Source of the DNA: a virus | DNA: 21,170 nucleotides | Direction: 5' to 3' (one strand) | Virus record (IMG/VR): IMGVR_UViG_3300007234_000137 | Coordinates: 1 to 21,170 of that record | Shown here: positions 11,126 through 20,725 of the stretch, in pieces | Layout: every line of letters begins with the position of its first letter | How positions within the stretch are numbered: position 1 is the first letter of the stretch | Translations under genes and position numbers: made by a program | The notes under the pieces: model-generated | Told to the model about the DNA's origin: nothing | Databases searched by the model: none | What the model saw: only the letters and a program-made list of their open reading frames with translations

Positions 11126-11619
11126 GCGTTTAGAAACTCACTCATGGAACACAACCATGGATCAACGTCCTGTTTTTTCATTCCATAATTGTAAGGTGTC
11201 AGTTCAACGGGTTGTTGGAGTTTTTCATTAAAGGCAATGGTGCATTCCTTTATCACGAATACCTTGCAGGTATCCTGGAAAGTCAGGTTGGGTATATTGT
11301 CTATGGCACCTCTGATGTAATAACCCAGTTCCATTACACAATAATTGAAATGTAATCCTGCTATAAAAATTTTATCCACACTGTATTGTTCTATGAATGA
11401 ACCCAGGTTAAAAAGAATACAATCGCCCTCGTCCCATCTGCAGGGTTCGTTGTATATTTTTTTGTCTTTCAATGCTTTCAGCATGGATTGATCGGTTATG
11501 GATCTGGTGTATATTGGACAGTCTACATCTCCCAATAACTTTATTGTGTTATCTCGAGCGGTCAGTTCCAGTGGATCTGTATGCTCTCTCCAGAAATGAT
11601 TGAGTATCAGTGCTTTCAT
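11122..11619 (-). CDS. Isochorismatase-like fold protein, possibly inactive
   Basis: The 165-residue product contains VDKIFIAGLHFNYCVMELGY, the pattern around the catalytic Cys of isochorismatase/cysteine-hydrolase proteins (Gly88, Cys94). Before it lies a family-like opening MKALILNHFW. In active members the first strand carries an Asp (usually xxDxQ), and here the corresponding position appears to be Asn7, so the catalytic triad may be incomplete. ATGA overlaps couple it to the genes on both sides. It could act on a small amide or nucleotide-linked substrate, or be a structural partner. Assignment rests on one strong motif, so it is moderate. Confidence 0.62.
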   Translation of the reverse strand: MKALILNHFWREHTDPLELTARDNTIKLLGDVDCPIYTRSITDQSMLKALKDKKIYNEPCRWDEGDCILFNLGSFIEQYSVDKIFIAGLHFNYCVMELGYYIRGAIDNIPNLTFQDTCKVFVIKECTIAFNEKLQQPVELTPYNYGMKKQDVDPWLCSMSEFLNA

Positions 11620-12605
11620 ATAAGCAATTTGTATTCCATGTCTAGGTGTTTCAGGCTTTTATACAGTTTGAGATTGTGCGCCAAAACTGGTTTCATCTCC
11701 TCATACATTTTTTCTAGTTCCTTAATGTTTTTGCCTGATATATGGTTTATTACCTTATGTATCTCTTTCAACCTTTCATAGCCCGAACACTCGTCGTACT
11801 GTTCATTCCACCAGGGAGAAAATGTTTTGAATCCTATCTTGTTCAAGTGTTTCAGAAAATGTTTTGGCCCAAACAGTATAAATGGTGTTTCGTTGCTGAT
11901 CGGTCTTGCTGTTTTTTCGGATGGACAGAATGTCGTCCCGCTATGGAAGGACTCTGTGACAATCTCTAGGAAAAAACGATTATAAAACTCATTTAAAGTG
12001 TATGCGTCCGAGTGGGCGAAATAATGATCTTCGGGCCTTGTTTGTAAAACTATGGGTGTTGCTTTTGAAAAGTTTTCAAAATAATTTACAAGGTTGTTCG
12101 ACGCACACAGCCTAAACATTTTTTCCTTGTCTACGTTGTGTAGTCTGGCATTCTTATGGAAGGACAACAATGTTTTTTCTTTGTGTTCATTATACAACAC
12201 GCAGGAGATCCATAACCTTTCCCATCTGCTGGCCCCCACGAAAAACGCAAAATGATTTATATTGTTCCAATTTTTTGTGTTGGTCGTTTTTAGAGTCTGT
12301 CCATATAGAAAATGTGAATCGTCATAATACAGTTCTATATTTGGCCACACTGTTTTATCTTCTACAGGGTTTCCGGATACCAGTTTGACGTTTGTCTCGT
12401 TGACATTCTTTCTTTGGCATATCTCTTTCAGAACTTCGATTATATTTTTTTGTCCTAGATCTGTGTCTCTCAGGGATAACCCTTCTCCATGGAATGCTAT
12501 CTCTAGAACATAATCGTTGGATATTTCTCTATCAAGATCCTTTATCACTGTGTCGGCCTGATCACAGTAACCGTCGAATACTTTTATTTTATACTTTTTC
12601 AACAT
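11616..12605 (-). CDS. Putative glycosyltransferase (GT10-like C-terminus)
   Basis: The 329-residue product has an alpha/beta N-terminal half. Its C-terminal region is IVTESFHSGTTFCPSEKTARPISNETPFILFGPKHFLKHLNKIGFKTF (about residues 215-262), followed by WWNEQYDECSGYERL. The E-K-x-x-x-P-I...P-F-x-x-x-G-P pattern resembles the nucleotide-sugar site of fucosyltransferase-like enzymes (ITEKxxxALxxxxxPVxxG). Related proteins occur in T4-like marine phages to my recollection. It would transfer a sugar to a phage or host glycan in the cytoplasm. It follows the ssrA gene at once, has no visible ribosome site, and is probably read from the ssrA transcript. It is coupled by ATGA to the isochorismatase-like gene. 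Confidence 0.65.
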   Translation of the reverse strand: MLKKYKIKVFDGYCDQADTVIKDLDREISNDYVLEIAFHGEGLSLRDTDLGQKNIIEVLKEICQRKNVNETNVKLVSGNPVEDKTVWPNIELYYDDSHFLYGQTLKTTNTKNWNNINHFAFFVGASRWERLWISCVLYNEHKEKTLLSFHKNARLHNVDKEKMFRLCASNNLVNYFENFSKATPIVLQTRPEDHYFAHSDAYTLNEFYNRFFLEIVTESFHSGTTFCPSEKTARPISNETPFILFGPKHFLKHLNKIGFKTFSPWWNEQYDECSGYERLKEIHKVINHISGKNIKELEKMYEEMKPVLAHNLKLYKSLKHLDMEYKLLI

Positions 12606-12625
12606 AAAAAGTTAGTGCCCCACTT

Positions 12626-12660
12626 CTGTTGCAAGGCAGGGGCCGCCCCTGAGTTATTGG
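12626..12660 (-). other. Pseudoknot-like region downstream of tag
   Basis: After the stop codons, CAGGGG/CCCCTG form a tight hairpin, and GCCCC can alternatively pair with GGGGC near 12617-12621. Such competing or interleaved GC stems are what a tmRNA pseudoknot looks like at this place. A run of five T (12606-12610) follows close by and may mark a weak end of transcription. Confidence 0.5.
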
Positions 12661-12663
12661 TTA

Positions 12664-12741
12664 TTACGCCGCTAATCTCAATTCAGTTTTGCCTGGTAAC
12701 ATAAATGTTACATCAGCAAAACCTAATGCTTTTTTGTTTGC
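12664..12741 (-). other. tmRNA tag reading frame (25 codons plus stop)
   Basis: The resume codon is GCA at 12739-12741, preceded by TTTTTAAAT as in other alphaproteobacterial-type tmRNAs. The tag begins ANKKALGFAD and ends TELRLAA, followed by TAA TAA. The LAA end is the usual ClpXP-recognised degron. At 25 residues the tag is well over the 8-15 typical of most tmRNAs. Confidence 0.88.
12686..12722 (-). repeat. Long hairpin inside the tag frame
   Basis: GTAACAT/ATGTTAC form a perfect inner stem with a two-base loop (12696-12711). GTTTTGC/GCAAAAC form an outer seven-base-pair stem, with a small internal loop that can hold two further pairs. Ribosomes would have to open this stem while translating the tag. 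Confidence 0.75.
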
Positions 12742-12821
12742 ATTTAAAAACTGGACGTATCCTCGTACCTACTGGGCAAACTCCTGATACCTTTACACAC
12801 CCGTCGAAACCGATCACCCCC

Positions 12822-12854
12822 GAAAGGGATTACGTAAGCCACCAAGTAATAATT
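12822..12854 (-). other. Intervening segment between tmRNA pieces
   Basis: These 33 nt separate the CCA of the acceptor piece from the 5' G of the coding piece and should be removed during maturation. TTGGTGG inside it is complementary to CCACCAA at the acceptor end, so the precursor can fold its own CCA into a seven-base-pair hairpin. Confidence 0.75.
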
Positions 12855-12925
12855 TGGTGGAGGTGCAGGGAATCGAACCCTGGTCCGAAATGTTTATTTC
12901 GTATCAATCAACATTTACGTCAGTA

Positions 12926-12953
12926 TTTAAACATATAATAATATGTTTGTCAA
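12926..12953 (-). promoter_or_regulatory. Promoter of ssrA with palindrome in spacer
   Basis: TTGACA (12948-12953) is followed after 16 bp by TTTAAA (12926-12931), or after 17 bp by TTAAAT. The spacer and -10 overlap a perfect inverted repeat, AAACATAT and ATATGTTT with a four-base centre (12929-12948), which could be an operator. The tmRNA precursor would start about 12920. Confidence 0.6.
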
Positions 12954-12968
12954 TTAATTTTGGTAATT

Positions 12969-14180
12969 TTAACTGATTGTATCGAGATCCCTGGCAATAC
13001 TTAATTCTCGATCGATGACAATGATGTCCTGTTGATTTAGATTGTTCAATAATTGTTTGCTCTGTGAATAAATGTCTTTGCCTGATGTGCTCAGTCCCAG
13101 ATCTTTTGATGCCTGGGTAATAATTTGTTCGGACGACAAACGGTCATAATTTTTTTTACTCAATCTCTCATCACGTTTTGCCTTCTGTGCCACAGAATCT
13201 AGATCTATGTGAGTCTTGACATCTGGTAGACCCTTCAATCTCAGAGTATCTGCAATCAGTTGTGTGGCCGGTAATGACGCTGTTTGTTCTGACAGCGGAT
13301 TCAATTGACTAAAATTCTTTTCATAATTTTTAAAATATTCTTGCCAGTCGGTCGATCCCGATGTTATCGATATCAAATTTCTAATTTTCGGGTTCTCGAC
13401 AAAATTTAATAATGATATTGTATCTACTAATGAATTGGTATATGTACGTATCACTCCTAGATTTGTTGTTTCCTTGGTAATACGATTTACTATGTTTTTT
13501 CTTTTTTCAATCAAATTATTTTTCTGTATTAGAAGTATAGGATCACCTGCCAGCACAGCATCAAAGTTCGTCGCCGTTGTTTGTATGTCTGACAGTTTGC
13601 TGTCGAATGTCGCTTGGTTAAATGAGGTGCTGTCTGGCTGAACTGTGTCTATGTAATTGCTCAAGGCCTGCACGGCATTTTGAAAAAGTGTGTCCGTTGA
13701 CAATGCTCTGTTTGTAATTGTTTGTATGGATTCTCTGATCACTTTAAAATCTTCATCTAACTTTTGGTTGAGTGTTCCGAAATGATCATTCACTCCCTTG
13801 CCTGTGTTTTCGGCGTCGGTATCGAAGTTATAGGAAAGTATGCTTTCTATGGTATTACACAATCCAAGATGTTCTATGAATCGAGGAGTGGTTGTGTCCT
13901 CCGGACTGGTCTCTCCCAGCGAACCGTTCAAGAGATTTTGTGCGTGTGCTTCGATGTTGATGTACACAGGTCCCAGATTTAAGTACGGAAATAAATTTAA
14001 TGTAGATCTGGCGGAACTCTTATTACTATCTGTTATTATAGAATTGGCCGTTAACTTCTCTTCCGCTGTTCTTGTTTTTGGTGTCCATCCTATCGATGCT
14101 GAATTAACTGCATTTTGTAGATGTTGTTTATTAAAATTAGGAGCGGTCTGCGATAATGTTTTTAGTTTTTTCTTAATCAT
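12969..14180 (-). CDS. Probable virion protein of unknown family, 403 residues
   Basis: The product is largely helical and polar, rich in Ser, Thr, Asn, Gln and Leu, with no signal peptide or membrane span. Several stretches look like long helices (for example FKVIRESIQTITNRALS and DLDSVAQKAKRDERLSKKNY). No catalytic motif is evident. It starts two bases after the PAAR gene and probably shares its late transcript, so a baseplate or tail-associated role is the best inference. I do not recognise the family, and helical repeats could also fit an injected or scaffolding protein. Confidence 0.75.
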   Translation of the reverse strand: MIKKKLKTLSQTAPNFNKQHLQNAVNSASIGWTPKTRTAEEKLTANSIITDSNKSSARSTLNLFPYLNLGPVYINIEAHAQNLLNGSLGETSPEDTTTPRFIEHLGLCNTIESILSYNFDTDAENTGKGVNDHFGTLNQKLDEDFKVIRESIQTITNRALSTDTLFQNAVQALSNYIDTVQPDSTSFNQATFDSKLSDIQTTATNFDAVLAGDPILLIQKNNLIEKRKNIVNRITKETTNLGVIRTYTNSLVDTISLLNFVENPKIRNLISITSGSTDWQEYFKNYEKNFSQLNPLSEQTASLPATQLIADTLRLKGLPDVKTHIDLDSVAQKAKRDERLSKKNYDRLSSEQIITQASKDLGLSTSGKDIYSQSKQLLNNLNQQDIIVIDRELSIARDLDTIS

Positions 14181-14182
14181 TT

Positions 14183-14473
14183 CTAGTATCCGTTGGCAAA
14201 CACATTAGGTGATCCATACATCACTGCTGTACACGTAGGATCTCCTTTTCTCCCCACAGGTATTCCGTGTGCAAACACGTTCGGGGATCCGGAAAAGATA
14301 GGCATGGAATGTCCACAACATTTGTCCCCGCAGGGTTTCTTGTGTGTCGTGTTGAAATGGCCGACGCAACTCAGTCCTCTACCGTTGGCCTGGACGTCTC
14401 TGAAATGTCCTTTACGTACCATCCCGCTACAATGCGGGACATCTGGATCTCCTACTCGTGCTAAACCTGGCAT
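14183..14473 (-). CDS. PAAR-repeat baseplate spike-tip protein
   Basis: The 96-residue product shows the PAAR pattern: MPGLARVGDPDVPHC at the start, then repeated GSPNVFAHGIPVGRKGD and GSPNVFANGY, with several His and Cys residues able to bind the metal at the cone tip. PAAR proteins cap the gp5 or VgrG spike of contractile tails (gp5.4 in T4) and help pierce the outer membrane. Length is normal for a one-domain phage PAAR protein. No ribosome site precedes the ATG, but a late-promoter-like CATAAATA ends five bases before it. It is followed by the 403-residue gene with a two-base gap. Confidence 0.9.
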   Translation of the reverse strand: MPGLARVGDPDVPHCSGMVRKGHFRDVQANGRGLSCVGHFNTTHKKPCGDKCCGHSMPIFSGSPNVFAHGIPVGRKGDPTCTAVMYGSPNVFANGY

Positions 14474-14507: not shown

Positions 14508-14654
14508 TTATAATAAGTGCTTGTCTAAAAATCTTTTTGCGGATTCTTCGGCAGATTTTTTTAGAAAGTTCTCTATGCGATCTGCCAGGTCTTCTACATG
14601 CTTCTCGTACTTTTCTGGATTTTCTTCTAGGTCTTTTAAAAAATCGTCGTCCAT
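14508..14654 (-). CDS. 48-residue acidic helical protein
   Basis: ATG (14652-14654) shares one base with the nrdB stop (TAATG), and the frame ends at TAA 14508-14510. The product begins MDDDFLKDLEENPEKYEKHV and is highly charged throughout, probably one or two helices. Coupling to nrdB and sensible composition support a real gene. The function is unknown; a small partner of ribonucleotide reductase or an unrelated accessory factor are both possible. Confidence 0.62.
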   Translation of the reverse strand: MDDDFLKDLEENPEKYEKHVEDLADRIENFLKKSAEESAKRFLDKHLL

Positions 14655-15754
14655 TATAATTTAAATTTTGAGAATGAATCTTTCTTCACGTCCTGTTTGA
14701 TGCCACCAACGATATAAGATTCGACTTCTGTCTCTTGTGGAGCGACTTGCATACCTCTGGAACTTAACCAATGTTGTGTCCATGGTAGGGGATTTTGATT
14801 CCATGGAGTGTCAAACTCGGGATCAAACCCTAATGCTTTCAATCTTTTATTGGCTATGTGTTCTACATACTGTCCTAACAGTCTCTCGTTCAAACCTATG
14901 ATAGAGCCATCTTTGAACAGATGTTTTGCCCAGGCCTTTTCTTCCGCCACGCACTTCTTGAACATCTCGATCACGGTCTTATCTTGACCCTTCATTATCT
15001 TGACCATGTCCTTATCGTCACCTTTTTGCCAGGCTTTGATCACGTGTGTGGTTAGATTCAAATGTGTTGCCTCATCACGAGCAATCAATGAAAGTATCTT
15101 GGCAGACCCTTCCATTAACTTCAACTCTCCGAATGCAAATGTGCAGGCGAATGATACATAGAATCTCAAACCTTCCAACAAGTTCACATTGACCATTGCT
15201 AGATATAATTGTTTTTTGACTTCGTTGATATCTCCTTTGCCTTTGACCACATAGTCCTGTGCAAGTTCTGAGAACCTATCGTAATTCTCTGTGACCGACA
15301 CTGCTCTTTTCAGTATCTCGTCGTCGTTCAATATTGTGTCAAACACTTCTGATGGATCTGAGTACACGTTCTTCATGATATGCGTGTAGGCTCTAGAGTG
15401 TATGGTTTCGAAGAAATCCCAAGTCACGATACAGCCTTCCAACTCTGGGTTGGAACAGTAAGGTAGAAATGATAGACAAGGTCCTCTGCCTTGCACTGAA
15501 TCCAATAGTGTTTGATATTTTAAATTGGAAGTAAAGATATGTTTCTGTTCTGGTCTGAAGTTTTGGAAATCTGCCCGATCCTTCTGTAGAGATACTTCTT
15601 CCGCTCTCCAGAAGTAGCCCAACATTGTTTGGTTCAGTTTATCGAACTGTGGATATTTGAACACATCATACCTTTGGATCGCTTGATCTTCCCCAAAAAA
15701 CATGGGTTGTCTGCTCCAGTCCACTTCGTTCCTGTTGAATACTGTCTTTGCCAT
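14654..15754 (-). CDS. nrdB: Ribonucleotide reductase class Ia, beta (radical) subunit
   Basis: The 366-residue NrdB makes the tyrosyl radical needed by NrdA to convert ribonucleoside diphosphates to deoxy forms for phage DNA. The di-iron ligands are present: Asp85 (LLDS), Glu116 and His119 (FETIHSRAY), Glu194 (LLEGLRF), and Glu228 and His231 (ARDEATH). The radical tyrosine is Tyr123. The C-terminal tail ends FSKFKL, the part that docks on NrdA. It is transcribed after nrdA but also from its own perfect consensus promoter placed right after the nrdA stop. The ATG lies nine bases after the -10 box without a ribosome site. Length is normal for phage NrdB. Confidence 0.96.
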   Translation of the reverse strand: MAKTVFNRNEVDWSRQPMFFGEDQAIQRYDVFKYPQFDKLNQTMLGYFWRAEEVSLQKDRADFQNFRPEQKHIFTSNLKYQTLLDSVQGRGPCLSFLPYCSNPELEGCIVTWDFFETIHSRAYTHIMKNVYSDPSEVFDTILNDDEILKRAVSVTENYDRFSELAQDYVVKGKGDINEVKKQLYLAMVNVNLLEGLRFYVSFACTFAFGELKLMEGSAKILSLIARDEATHLNLTTHVIKAWQKGDDKDMVKIMKGQDKTVIEMFKKCVAEEKAWAKHLFKDGSIIGLNERLLGQYVEHIANKRLKALGFDPEFDTPWNQNPLPWTQHWLSSRGMQVAPQETEVESYIVGGIKQDVKKDSFSKFKL

Positions 15755-19144: not shown

Positions 19145-20725
19145 TTAAACTATTTCCGTGATCTGATAATCGAAAGTGGCAGTGGTGTCGTTGTTAGTGG
19201 TATATTTCACTATGAATGTCTCGTTGCCCGCCGTGGAATCCAAAGCATCCACGTCCACAGACAATTCCACGCCGATGTCTGCTGTCTCTTCATAGTCGTC
19301 ATTGTAGGTTGGAGCAGTGCCTTCTTTGCCGACAAAGGTCAATACACCTGTTCTGGAATTTGATCCTCTGTCTATCTTGTACTTCACAGACACGCTGGTT
19401 CCGTTCGTGGCCTTGACTCTTATACCTGTCGTTGCCGCGACAGATTGATTGTTGGCCATTGTGAACTGTTTCACGGCCTTGTCCACGATCGCTACACCGT
19501 CCACGTCTTTCAACGGTACATATGATGTGCTTCTGAGATCGGATCTCTCAAAGTAATCAAATCGACTAGAACATTCATCTGCTGAAAATTGTATCACTGG
19601 AGACTCGTTGCCGTTGTTCTGGTCATATCCCTCAAAATTATTTCCCACGTTGTTTGCAAACCAGTTGCCCATGGAAATGATATTTCTGATAGTGCCTTGT
19701 GAATCCACTTTGATAGCATTCTTGCCGATAGTATTCCAAGTGCCGGCGATGAATTGGACGTTGCTTGGTCCCAGTGTCAATCCATTGGATGAGCCGTCCG
19801 TGTCATCTCCGATATAGGCACCGTAGTAACCGACGGAGAAATCACAGTTGATAAATCGTGCTGATGTCAGGTCATAGTCAAGGTCTACCAATCTGGCAAA
19901 CTTCGTGAACTGGCACTGATCAAACACGATGTTGGAACAAGGAAGAGCCGTTGTGCTTCTCACTGTCACTCCCTTGGAAGCAGATACATCTGCTCCGCCC
20001 GACGAATATGTTCCTTGAAATTTTACATTGTTGAAATATACTTTGGTGGCATTGTCTATAGACATTCCGCCATAGGCCTCACCGTTTTTAAGTGTTAAAT
20101 TTGATATCTGTATTTCTGTTGGGAAACTTGCAGAAAGAATTGAACCATATGTGTTACCGCTTAGGTCTTCTGTGACTGCCACTGGTGCATTGCCACCTGT
20201 TTGATAGATAATAGTTTTGTCTGTGCCCTCTCCTGTTAGGTGAGCATATCTCGGAATAGTGATTGATCCTGACACTTTATATGTTCCTGCCGGGAAAAAT
20301 AACATCCTGTGGGATCTTACATCTGCTTCGTCGGTGTCTGAATACAACTCGTCTATGGCTCTTTGTATTGCTAACTTGTCGTCTGTAGATCCGTCACCAA
20401 CTGCACCAAAGGCTTTTACAGACACATAATCGTCTAATCTTTCTTGTAGAGATCTTGTAACATTTGTTGTAGCACCCGTCAATATCGGTGTGCTAGATCC
20501 TAGGTAACCTTTGTAATAATATCCTGTTGCCGTACTAAAAATACTAGAGCCGCTTGTTAATATCTCTGTGTTGCCCACGGCTGGTGCACCGTCTGCCACT
20601 GTGCCATTACCTATGTACAGTTTCTGCTCGTCAATAACCCAACCCAACTCGCCTGCCGCGAGTTGTGGTAAGTCTGTAGCAAGACCTCTTCTATGTTGAA
20701 TTCGACTAATTTGGACAACGGCCAC
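19145..20725 (-). CDS. Tailspike with pectate-lyase-type beta-helix
   Basis: The 526-residue product begins with a short attachment-type module (residues 6-41: ISRIQHRRG, LPQLAAGELGWVIDE, KLYIGNG), common at the N-terminus of phage fibre proteins. It is followed by VSVKAFGAVGDGSTDDKLAIQRAID (101-125), the signature of the pectate_lyase_3 beta-helix family. Repeated short strands with Asn and Gly turns run to about residue 400, ahead of a distinct beta domain (residues 410-526). Such proteins bind and often cleave surface polysaccharide. Start is GTG at 20725 with GGAG ten bases before it. A late promoter lies upstream, consistent with a virion protein. Confidence 0.88.
   Translation of the reverse strand: MAVVQISRIQHRRGLATDLPQLAAGELGWVIDEQKLYIGNGTVADGAPAVGNTEILTSGSSIFSTATGYYYKGYLGSSTPILTGATTNVTRSLQERLDDYVSVKAFGAVGDGSTDDKLAIQRAIDELYSDTDEADVRSHRMLFFPAGTYKVSGSITIPRYAHLTGEGTDKTIIYQTGGNAPVAVTEDLSGNTYGSILSASFPTEIQISNLTLKNGEAYGGMSIDNATKVYFNNVKFQGTYSSGGADVSASKGVTVRSTTALPCSNIVFDQCQFTKFARLVDLDYDLTSARFINCDFSVGYYGAYIGDDTDGSSNGLTLGPSNVQFIAGTWNTIGKNAIKVDSQGTIRNIISMGNWFANNVGNNFEGYDQNNGNESPVIQFSADECSSRFDYFERSDLRSTSYVPLKDVDGVAIVDKAVKQFTMANNQSVAATTGIRVKATNGTSVSVKYKIDRGSNSRTGVLTFVGKEGTAPTYNDDYEETADIGVELSVDVDALDSTAGNETFIVKYTTNNDTTATFDYQITEIV

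Follow-up and report, generated by a model that had tools for sequence, protein, structure and literature searches.

The stretch of viral DNA analysed here, called the window throughout, is the IMG/VR virus record IMGVR_UViG_3300007234_000137, of 21,170 bases and 39.7% G+C. On its minus strand, between positions 12953 and 12614, we identify a permuted transfer-messenger RNA (tmRNA; ssrA) gene of the alphaproteobacterial type together with its own promoter. This is very probably a working two-piece tmRNA gene, and the phage that carries it is a marine T4-like myophage, unclassified but with affinity to the Kyanoviridae. The peptide tag that it specifies is 25 amino acids long, and long tags of two unrelated families are conserved in related phage genes.

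Gene structure and conservation in phage relatives

An initial annotation, made from the DNA letters alone, had proposed a phage-borne, circularly permuted two-piece tmRNA at 12611-12920, and covariance models, the kind of check that it suggested, match this region far above threshold. Both relevant Rfam models exceed their gathering scores on the minus strand, namely tmRNA_permuted (RF04321; 12918-12664, 100.2 bits against a gathering score of 47, E-value 8.5e-19) and alpha_tmRNA (RF01849; 12970-12614, 76.9 bits against 50). ARAGORN likewise predicts a permuted tmRNA, at 12950-12573 on the same strand, with the tag ANKKALGFADVTFMLPGKTELRLAA followed by two stop codons. The proposed span agrees with the RNA, and the promoter-like element lies just outside it. 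The parts of the gene are as follows.

12925-12953, minus strand: promoter-like element, TTGACA (12953-12948), 17 nucleotides, TTAAAT (12930-12925); conserved in relatives
12855-12918, minus strand: acceptor half, with T arm, CACCTCC (12865-12859) and encoded ACCA (12858-12855); from the RF04321 and RF01849 alignments and pairing in 60 relatives
12822-12854, minus strand: 33-nucleotide spacer between the halves, placed by its position between CCA and GGGGGTG; presumably removed
12614-12821, minus strand: coding half, from the RF01849 alignment to 12614; 3' end approximate
12661-12741, minus strand: tag frame, with GCA resume codon, the 25 codons of ANKKALGFADVTFMLPGKTELRLAA and TAA TAA; from ARAGORN and the tag families in relatives
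12685-12723, minus strand: hairpin predicted by RNA folding inside the tag frame, of uncertain meaning
12616-12644, minus strand: 3' hairpin around the conserved GCAACAGAA loop, then CTAACTTTTT; a covarying helix in relatives that is also terminator-like

The acceptor half, with CACCTCC-ACCA at 12865-12855, lies ahead of the coding half, with GGGGGTG at 12821-12815, and the two together rebuild an acceptor stem of seven pairs out of seven that carries the G3-U70 alanine identity pair and a CCA end. The T arm is regular (CAGGG-TTCGATT-CCCTG). The coding half opens with GGGGGTG and continues through a D-like loop, a P2-type 3' strand, a messenger-like region and the 3' hairpin; the frame within it runs from an alanine resume codon to an Ala-Ala end (GCA ... 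GCG GCG TAA TAA). The order of the halves, the stem with its G3-U pair, the normal T arm and the tag ending in LAA before a double stop had all been noted at the outset and are borne out here, while the P2 helix was examined through the Rfam alignment only.

Using the NrdB protein of the window as an anchor we collected 80 viral loci and searched 50 records with RF04321; these records are fragments, so that absence of a match is weak evidence. The model scored above its cut-off in 29 of the 50, with two more at an E-value of 0.001. Across 60 distinct phage genes the acceptor stem forms all seven pairs between the separately encoded halves, in three types (GGGGGTG/CACCTCC, GGGGTGG/CCACTCC and GGGGCTG/CAGCTCC) that each retain G3-U70, and the T stems of the same genes occur in many different paired forms. 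Matched changes on the two sides of a stem whose strands are encoded apart are hard to explain unless the RNA is functional. A helix of variable sequence encloses GCAACAGAA in 60 of 62 distinct genes, and all 62 have TTGAC(A/T), 17 nucleotides and then TTAAAT, TATAAT or, once, TAAATA, although the relatives share ancestry and none of these counts represents independent events. A consensus promoter scan of the window did not list the element, since it accepts only hexamers downstream whose second base is A.

Weak RF04321 matches below the cut-off were also seen in two related phage records (G037:C1:75041-75187 and G027:C1:38-116); these may be tmRNA genes that have decayed, diverged or been cut short.

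Long tag families

Tags of 22-25 amino acids are encoded by 26 of the 29 nrdB-linked phage genes above the cut-off, a set that includes one contig near-identical to the window; in the tmRNA database, tags most often have 10 amino acids (PMC11915505). Fourteen of the 29 belong to a family that we term class A, which includes the window tag and has a KALGFADLTV-like core and an LRLAA-like end (KALGFADLTV..LRLAA; 22-25 amino acids). Eleven form class B, with an AFKPEVTVP core and an ELVAA end (23 amino acids). The remaining four comprise one other long tag, ANKRFVSEVKIPSNFVVGRELLAA, two short tags, ADENLALAA, and one that was not resolved. The tags retain a C-terminal Ala-Ala throughout. When the whole viral collection was scanned with patterns, 33 class A and 51 class B stretches were recovered, and CCACCA lies at most 230 nucleotides upstream of all 51 class B stretches and of 30 of the 33 class A stretches, the other three being too close to where the stored sequence stops for this to be judged.

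Two loci with roughly 80% identical NrdB (L212 and L215) have a permuted tmRNA with the short tag ADENLALAA and long inserts, so the same phage group holds both short and long tags.

A class A tag gave no match by tblastn, and the window tag none to solved structures. Nor were the peptides that we searched for printed in the literature covered, most subscription papers and all supplements being outside its reach, and we provisionally regard the tag families as undescribed.

Relation to SAR11 and to known phage tmRNAs

We built a tree of 63 tmRNAs with nine other alphaproteobacterial genes as its root; tag columns were partly included and some branches are long. In it the phage copies group with Pelagibacterales against the other Alphaproteobacteria (support 100/99). 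A long branch leads to the long-tag phage genes, which make up a single group (96/87). A SAR11-like origin of the phage tmRNA is therefore likely on the tree, which places Pelagibacterales as the nearest bacteria. As to the capture from a host that the initial annotation envisaged, a recent event is not supported: the phage copies form a long-branched clade of their own with tags of their own, which points to an old capture after which the gene either spread or was maintained in phages. The two-piece tmRNA of Pelagibacterales shares the gene order of the window gene, its best acceptor region is 89% identical over 53 nucleotides, and one SAR11 gene (L271) has the same 3' loop, CCTTGCAACAGAA. 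That gene has a spacer of about 12 nucleotides, as against 33 in the window. The tags differ too: the comparison with SAR11 that had been suggested gave tags of 9 amino acids (for example ANESYALAA) in SAR11 against 25 in the window, a departure from the short tag of the SAR11 type.

Whether such a gene had been described in this phage group was left as a question by the initial annotation, and for the kind of gene the answer is yes. The OM43 myophage Melnitz has a published two-piece ssrA, and the same study counts 133 unique tmRNA structures in phages, of which 53 are two-piece, 50 of these coming from marine or aquatic phages; it also reports a permuted tmRNA in 17 of 47 Melnitz-clustered contigs (PMC9004378). 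Like the window phage, Melnitz is a T4-like marine myophage whose permuted ssrA is of alphaproteobacterial rather than host type and is patchily distributed within its group. However, its ssrA adjoins a transcription coactivator gene, with a predicted glutamine riboswitch, whereas the window gene lies near PAAR and nrdB genes; no glutamine riboswitch matched in the window at the gathering score, near the gene at E-values up to 1, or beside 20 relatives. The Pelagibacter phage Mosig EXVC030M (MT647606) has an annotated SsrA and thus also represents a permuted tmRNA in a Kyanoviridae phage, but its tag has 9 amino acids (GEDNFALAA), its neighbourhood is unlike that of the window, and blastn showed no DNA similarity between the two genes. 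The Melnitz gene was not retrieved by similarity to the Mosig gene. When the window gene was compared by blastn with 50,697 phage records, the sole matches were short ones to the T arm, most of them in transfer RNA genes. The presence of tmRNA in such phages is thus already known, and what may be new is the long conserved tag.

Proposed function and alternatives

According to the mechanism that we propose, the gene would be transcribed as one precursor from its own sigma-70-like promoter, as the conservation of that element suggests, and the tRNA-processing enzymes would excise the spacer to give an acceptor RNA and a coding RNA. These would stay joined by base pairing, in line with the covariation described above. 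Host alanyl-tRNA synthetase would presumably charge the acceptor through G3-U70 and host SmpB deliver the phage tmRNA to stalled ribosomes; a Pfam scan of 20 window proteins, from a record that is a genome fragment, gave no match to SmpB, which fits reliance on the SmpB of the host. The ribosome would then resume at GCA and add the 25-amino-acid tag, whose LAA end would mark the products for ClpXP-type proteases. The likely benefit is ribosome recycling and the clearing of broken proteins while messenger RNA is degraded during infection; the role in translation or proteolysis that the initial annotation suggested is likewise presumed. In the least certain step, the inner conserved part of the tag probably alters how tagged products are handled relative to those bearing the 9-amino-acid tag of the host.

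We also put forward, tentatively and as a possibility on the unlikely side, that a tmRNA captured by a marine phage lineage has been remodelled there to add a long, selected peptide of the lineage's own, of two unrelated families, in place of a host-type degron, thereby changing during infection the fate of stalled proteins, which might be steered, for example, to another protease, adaptor or location. Variable sites in the tags are mainly third codon positions, and pairwise pN/pS (the ratio of nonsynonymous to synonymous change) comes to 0.29 in class A and 0.28 in class B, although the relatives compared were partly gathered with patterns that constrain part of each peptide, and the constraint on the class A core lowers pN. 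The excess of synonymous change supports selection on the peptide without proving it. Besides that constraint, a further result counts against the mechanism proposed above: the close relative L002, with a 96% identical NrdB, has no tmRNA at the corresponding site after similar PAAR and 403-amino-acid protein genes, so that the tmRNA is dispensable in some relatives.

A plainer account, to which we give somewhat less than an even chance, is that the gene is an ordinary rescue tmRNA supplementing that of the host, with the length and inner sequence of its tag inherited from an unsampled long-tag bacterium and serving no special role. The patchy presence of the gene and the invariant Ala-Ala end agree with this, and ARAGORN assigns a 22-amino-acid tag to an alphaproteobacterial gene (L279), so that bacteria can have long tags. 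It is harder to reconcile with two unrelated long-tag families, in each of which conservation extends over the length of the tag and most change is synonymous, or with the failure to find the class A core in 398 Pseudomonadota and 297 Pelagibacterales genomes. That the phage RNA instead antagonises host trans-translation, by competing for SmpB, alanyl-tRNA synthetase or ribosomes, we hold to be very unlikely, because a mere competitor would have no need of the tag frame, stop codons and Ala-Ala end that are conserved.

The extra codons might also be retained for a hairpin that the coding piece requires, the peptide being largely a by-product. RNA folding predicts a hairpin inside most tags, and for class B its stability exceeds that of synonymous recodings in 14 of 14 sequences (mean z -1.94), but these are close relatives and not independent. 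For class A, to which the window belongs, the mean z is only -0.24, and the window hairpin itself is not stronger than its recodings (z -0.62). Moreover, third positions vary while the amino acids hold, and we consider this explanation improbable. Origin of the long tag by read-through of the P5 hairpin was set aside: a P5-like hairpin is still predicted around the stop codon, most clearly in the relative L218, and the hairpin within the tag therefore looks additional.

Phage tmRNAs as such are known. Because the long tags seem to be selected as peptides and the likely donor lineage lacks them, these phages may put trans-translation to uses that go beyond copying a host rescue RNA.

Genomic setting

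The neighbouring genes upstream of the tmRNA gene include the following.

12969-14180, minus strand: 403-amino-acid protein, the immediate upstream neighbour; unmatched in Pfam and PHROGs; L002 has a similar protein after its PAAR gene
14183-14473, minus strand: PAAR-motif protein (Pfam PF05488, phrog_281)
14654-15754, minus strand: nrdB, ribonucleotide reductase small subunit (Pfam PF00268); 63-64% to T4-like cyanophages and pelagiphages

The initial placement of the gene in a virion-gene region is only loosely right, as the upstream side holds the 403-amino-acid protein, the PAAR protein, nrdB and nrdA, and the downstream proteins lack family matches. Searches with the two flanking proteins (12969-14180 and 11616-12605) returned only the near-identical contig. 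That contig, from another metagenome, is 99.9% identical to the window across 11,209 bases spanning the tmRNA gene, and in many other contigs a permuted tmRNA and nrdB are separated by about 2 to 4 kb, mostly on the same strand. The window comes from a metagenomic virus record, and a host-phage assembly chimera had accordingly been named at the outset as a way in which the proposal could fail; the independent contig contradicts this, and with the linkage to nrdB and the lack of the window tag core in the sampled bacteria we rule it out, its probability being negligible.

Three further observations concern the parts of the gene and the window at large. Most class A genes keep a GGTGGCTTATGTAATCCCT-like block in the spacer (12822-12854) unusually well, though the spacer is expected to be discarded; class B and SAR11 genes are without this block, which might serve as a signal for processing or folding. 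Among the class A and class B genes, even close relatives differ strongly in their T arms, with loops of the TTCGANN type or the GGCAGTA type, as if the T arm had been swapped between genes. Elsewhere in the window, the minus strand at 19145-20725 encodes a tail-spike-like protein that combines the N-terminal domain of a major tropism determinant with a pectate-lyase-like domain.
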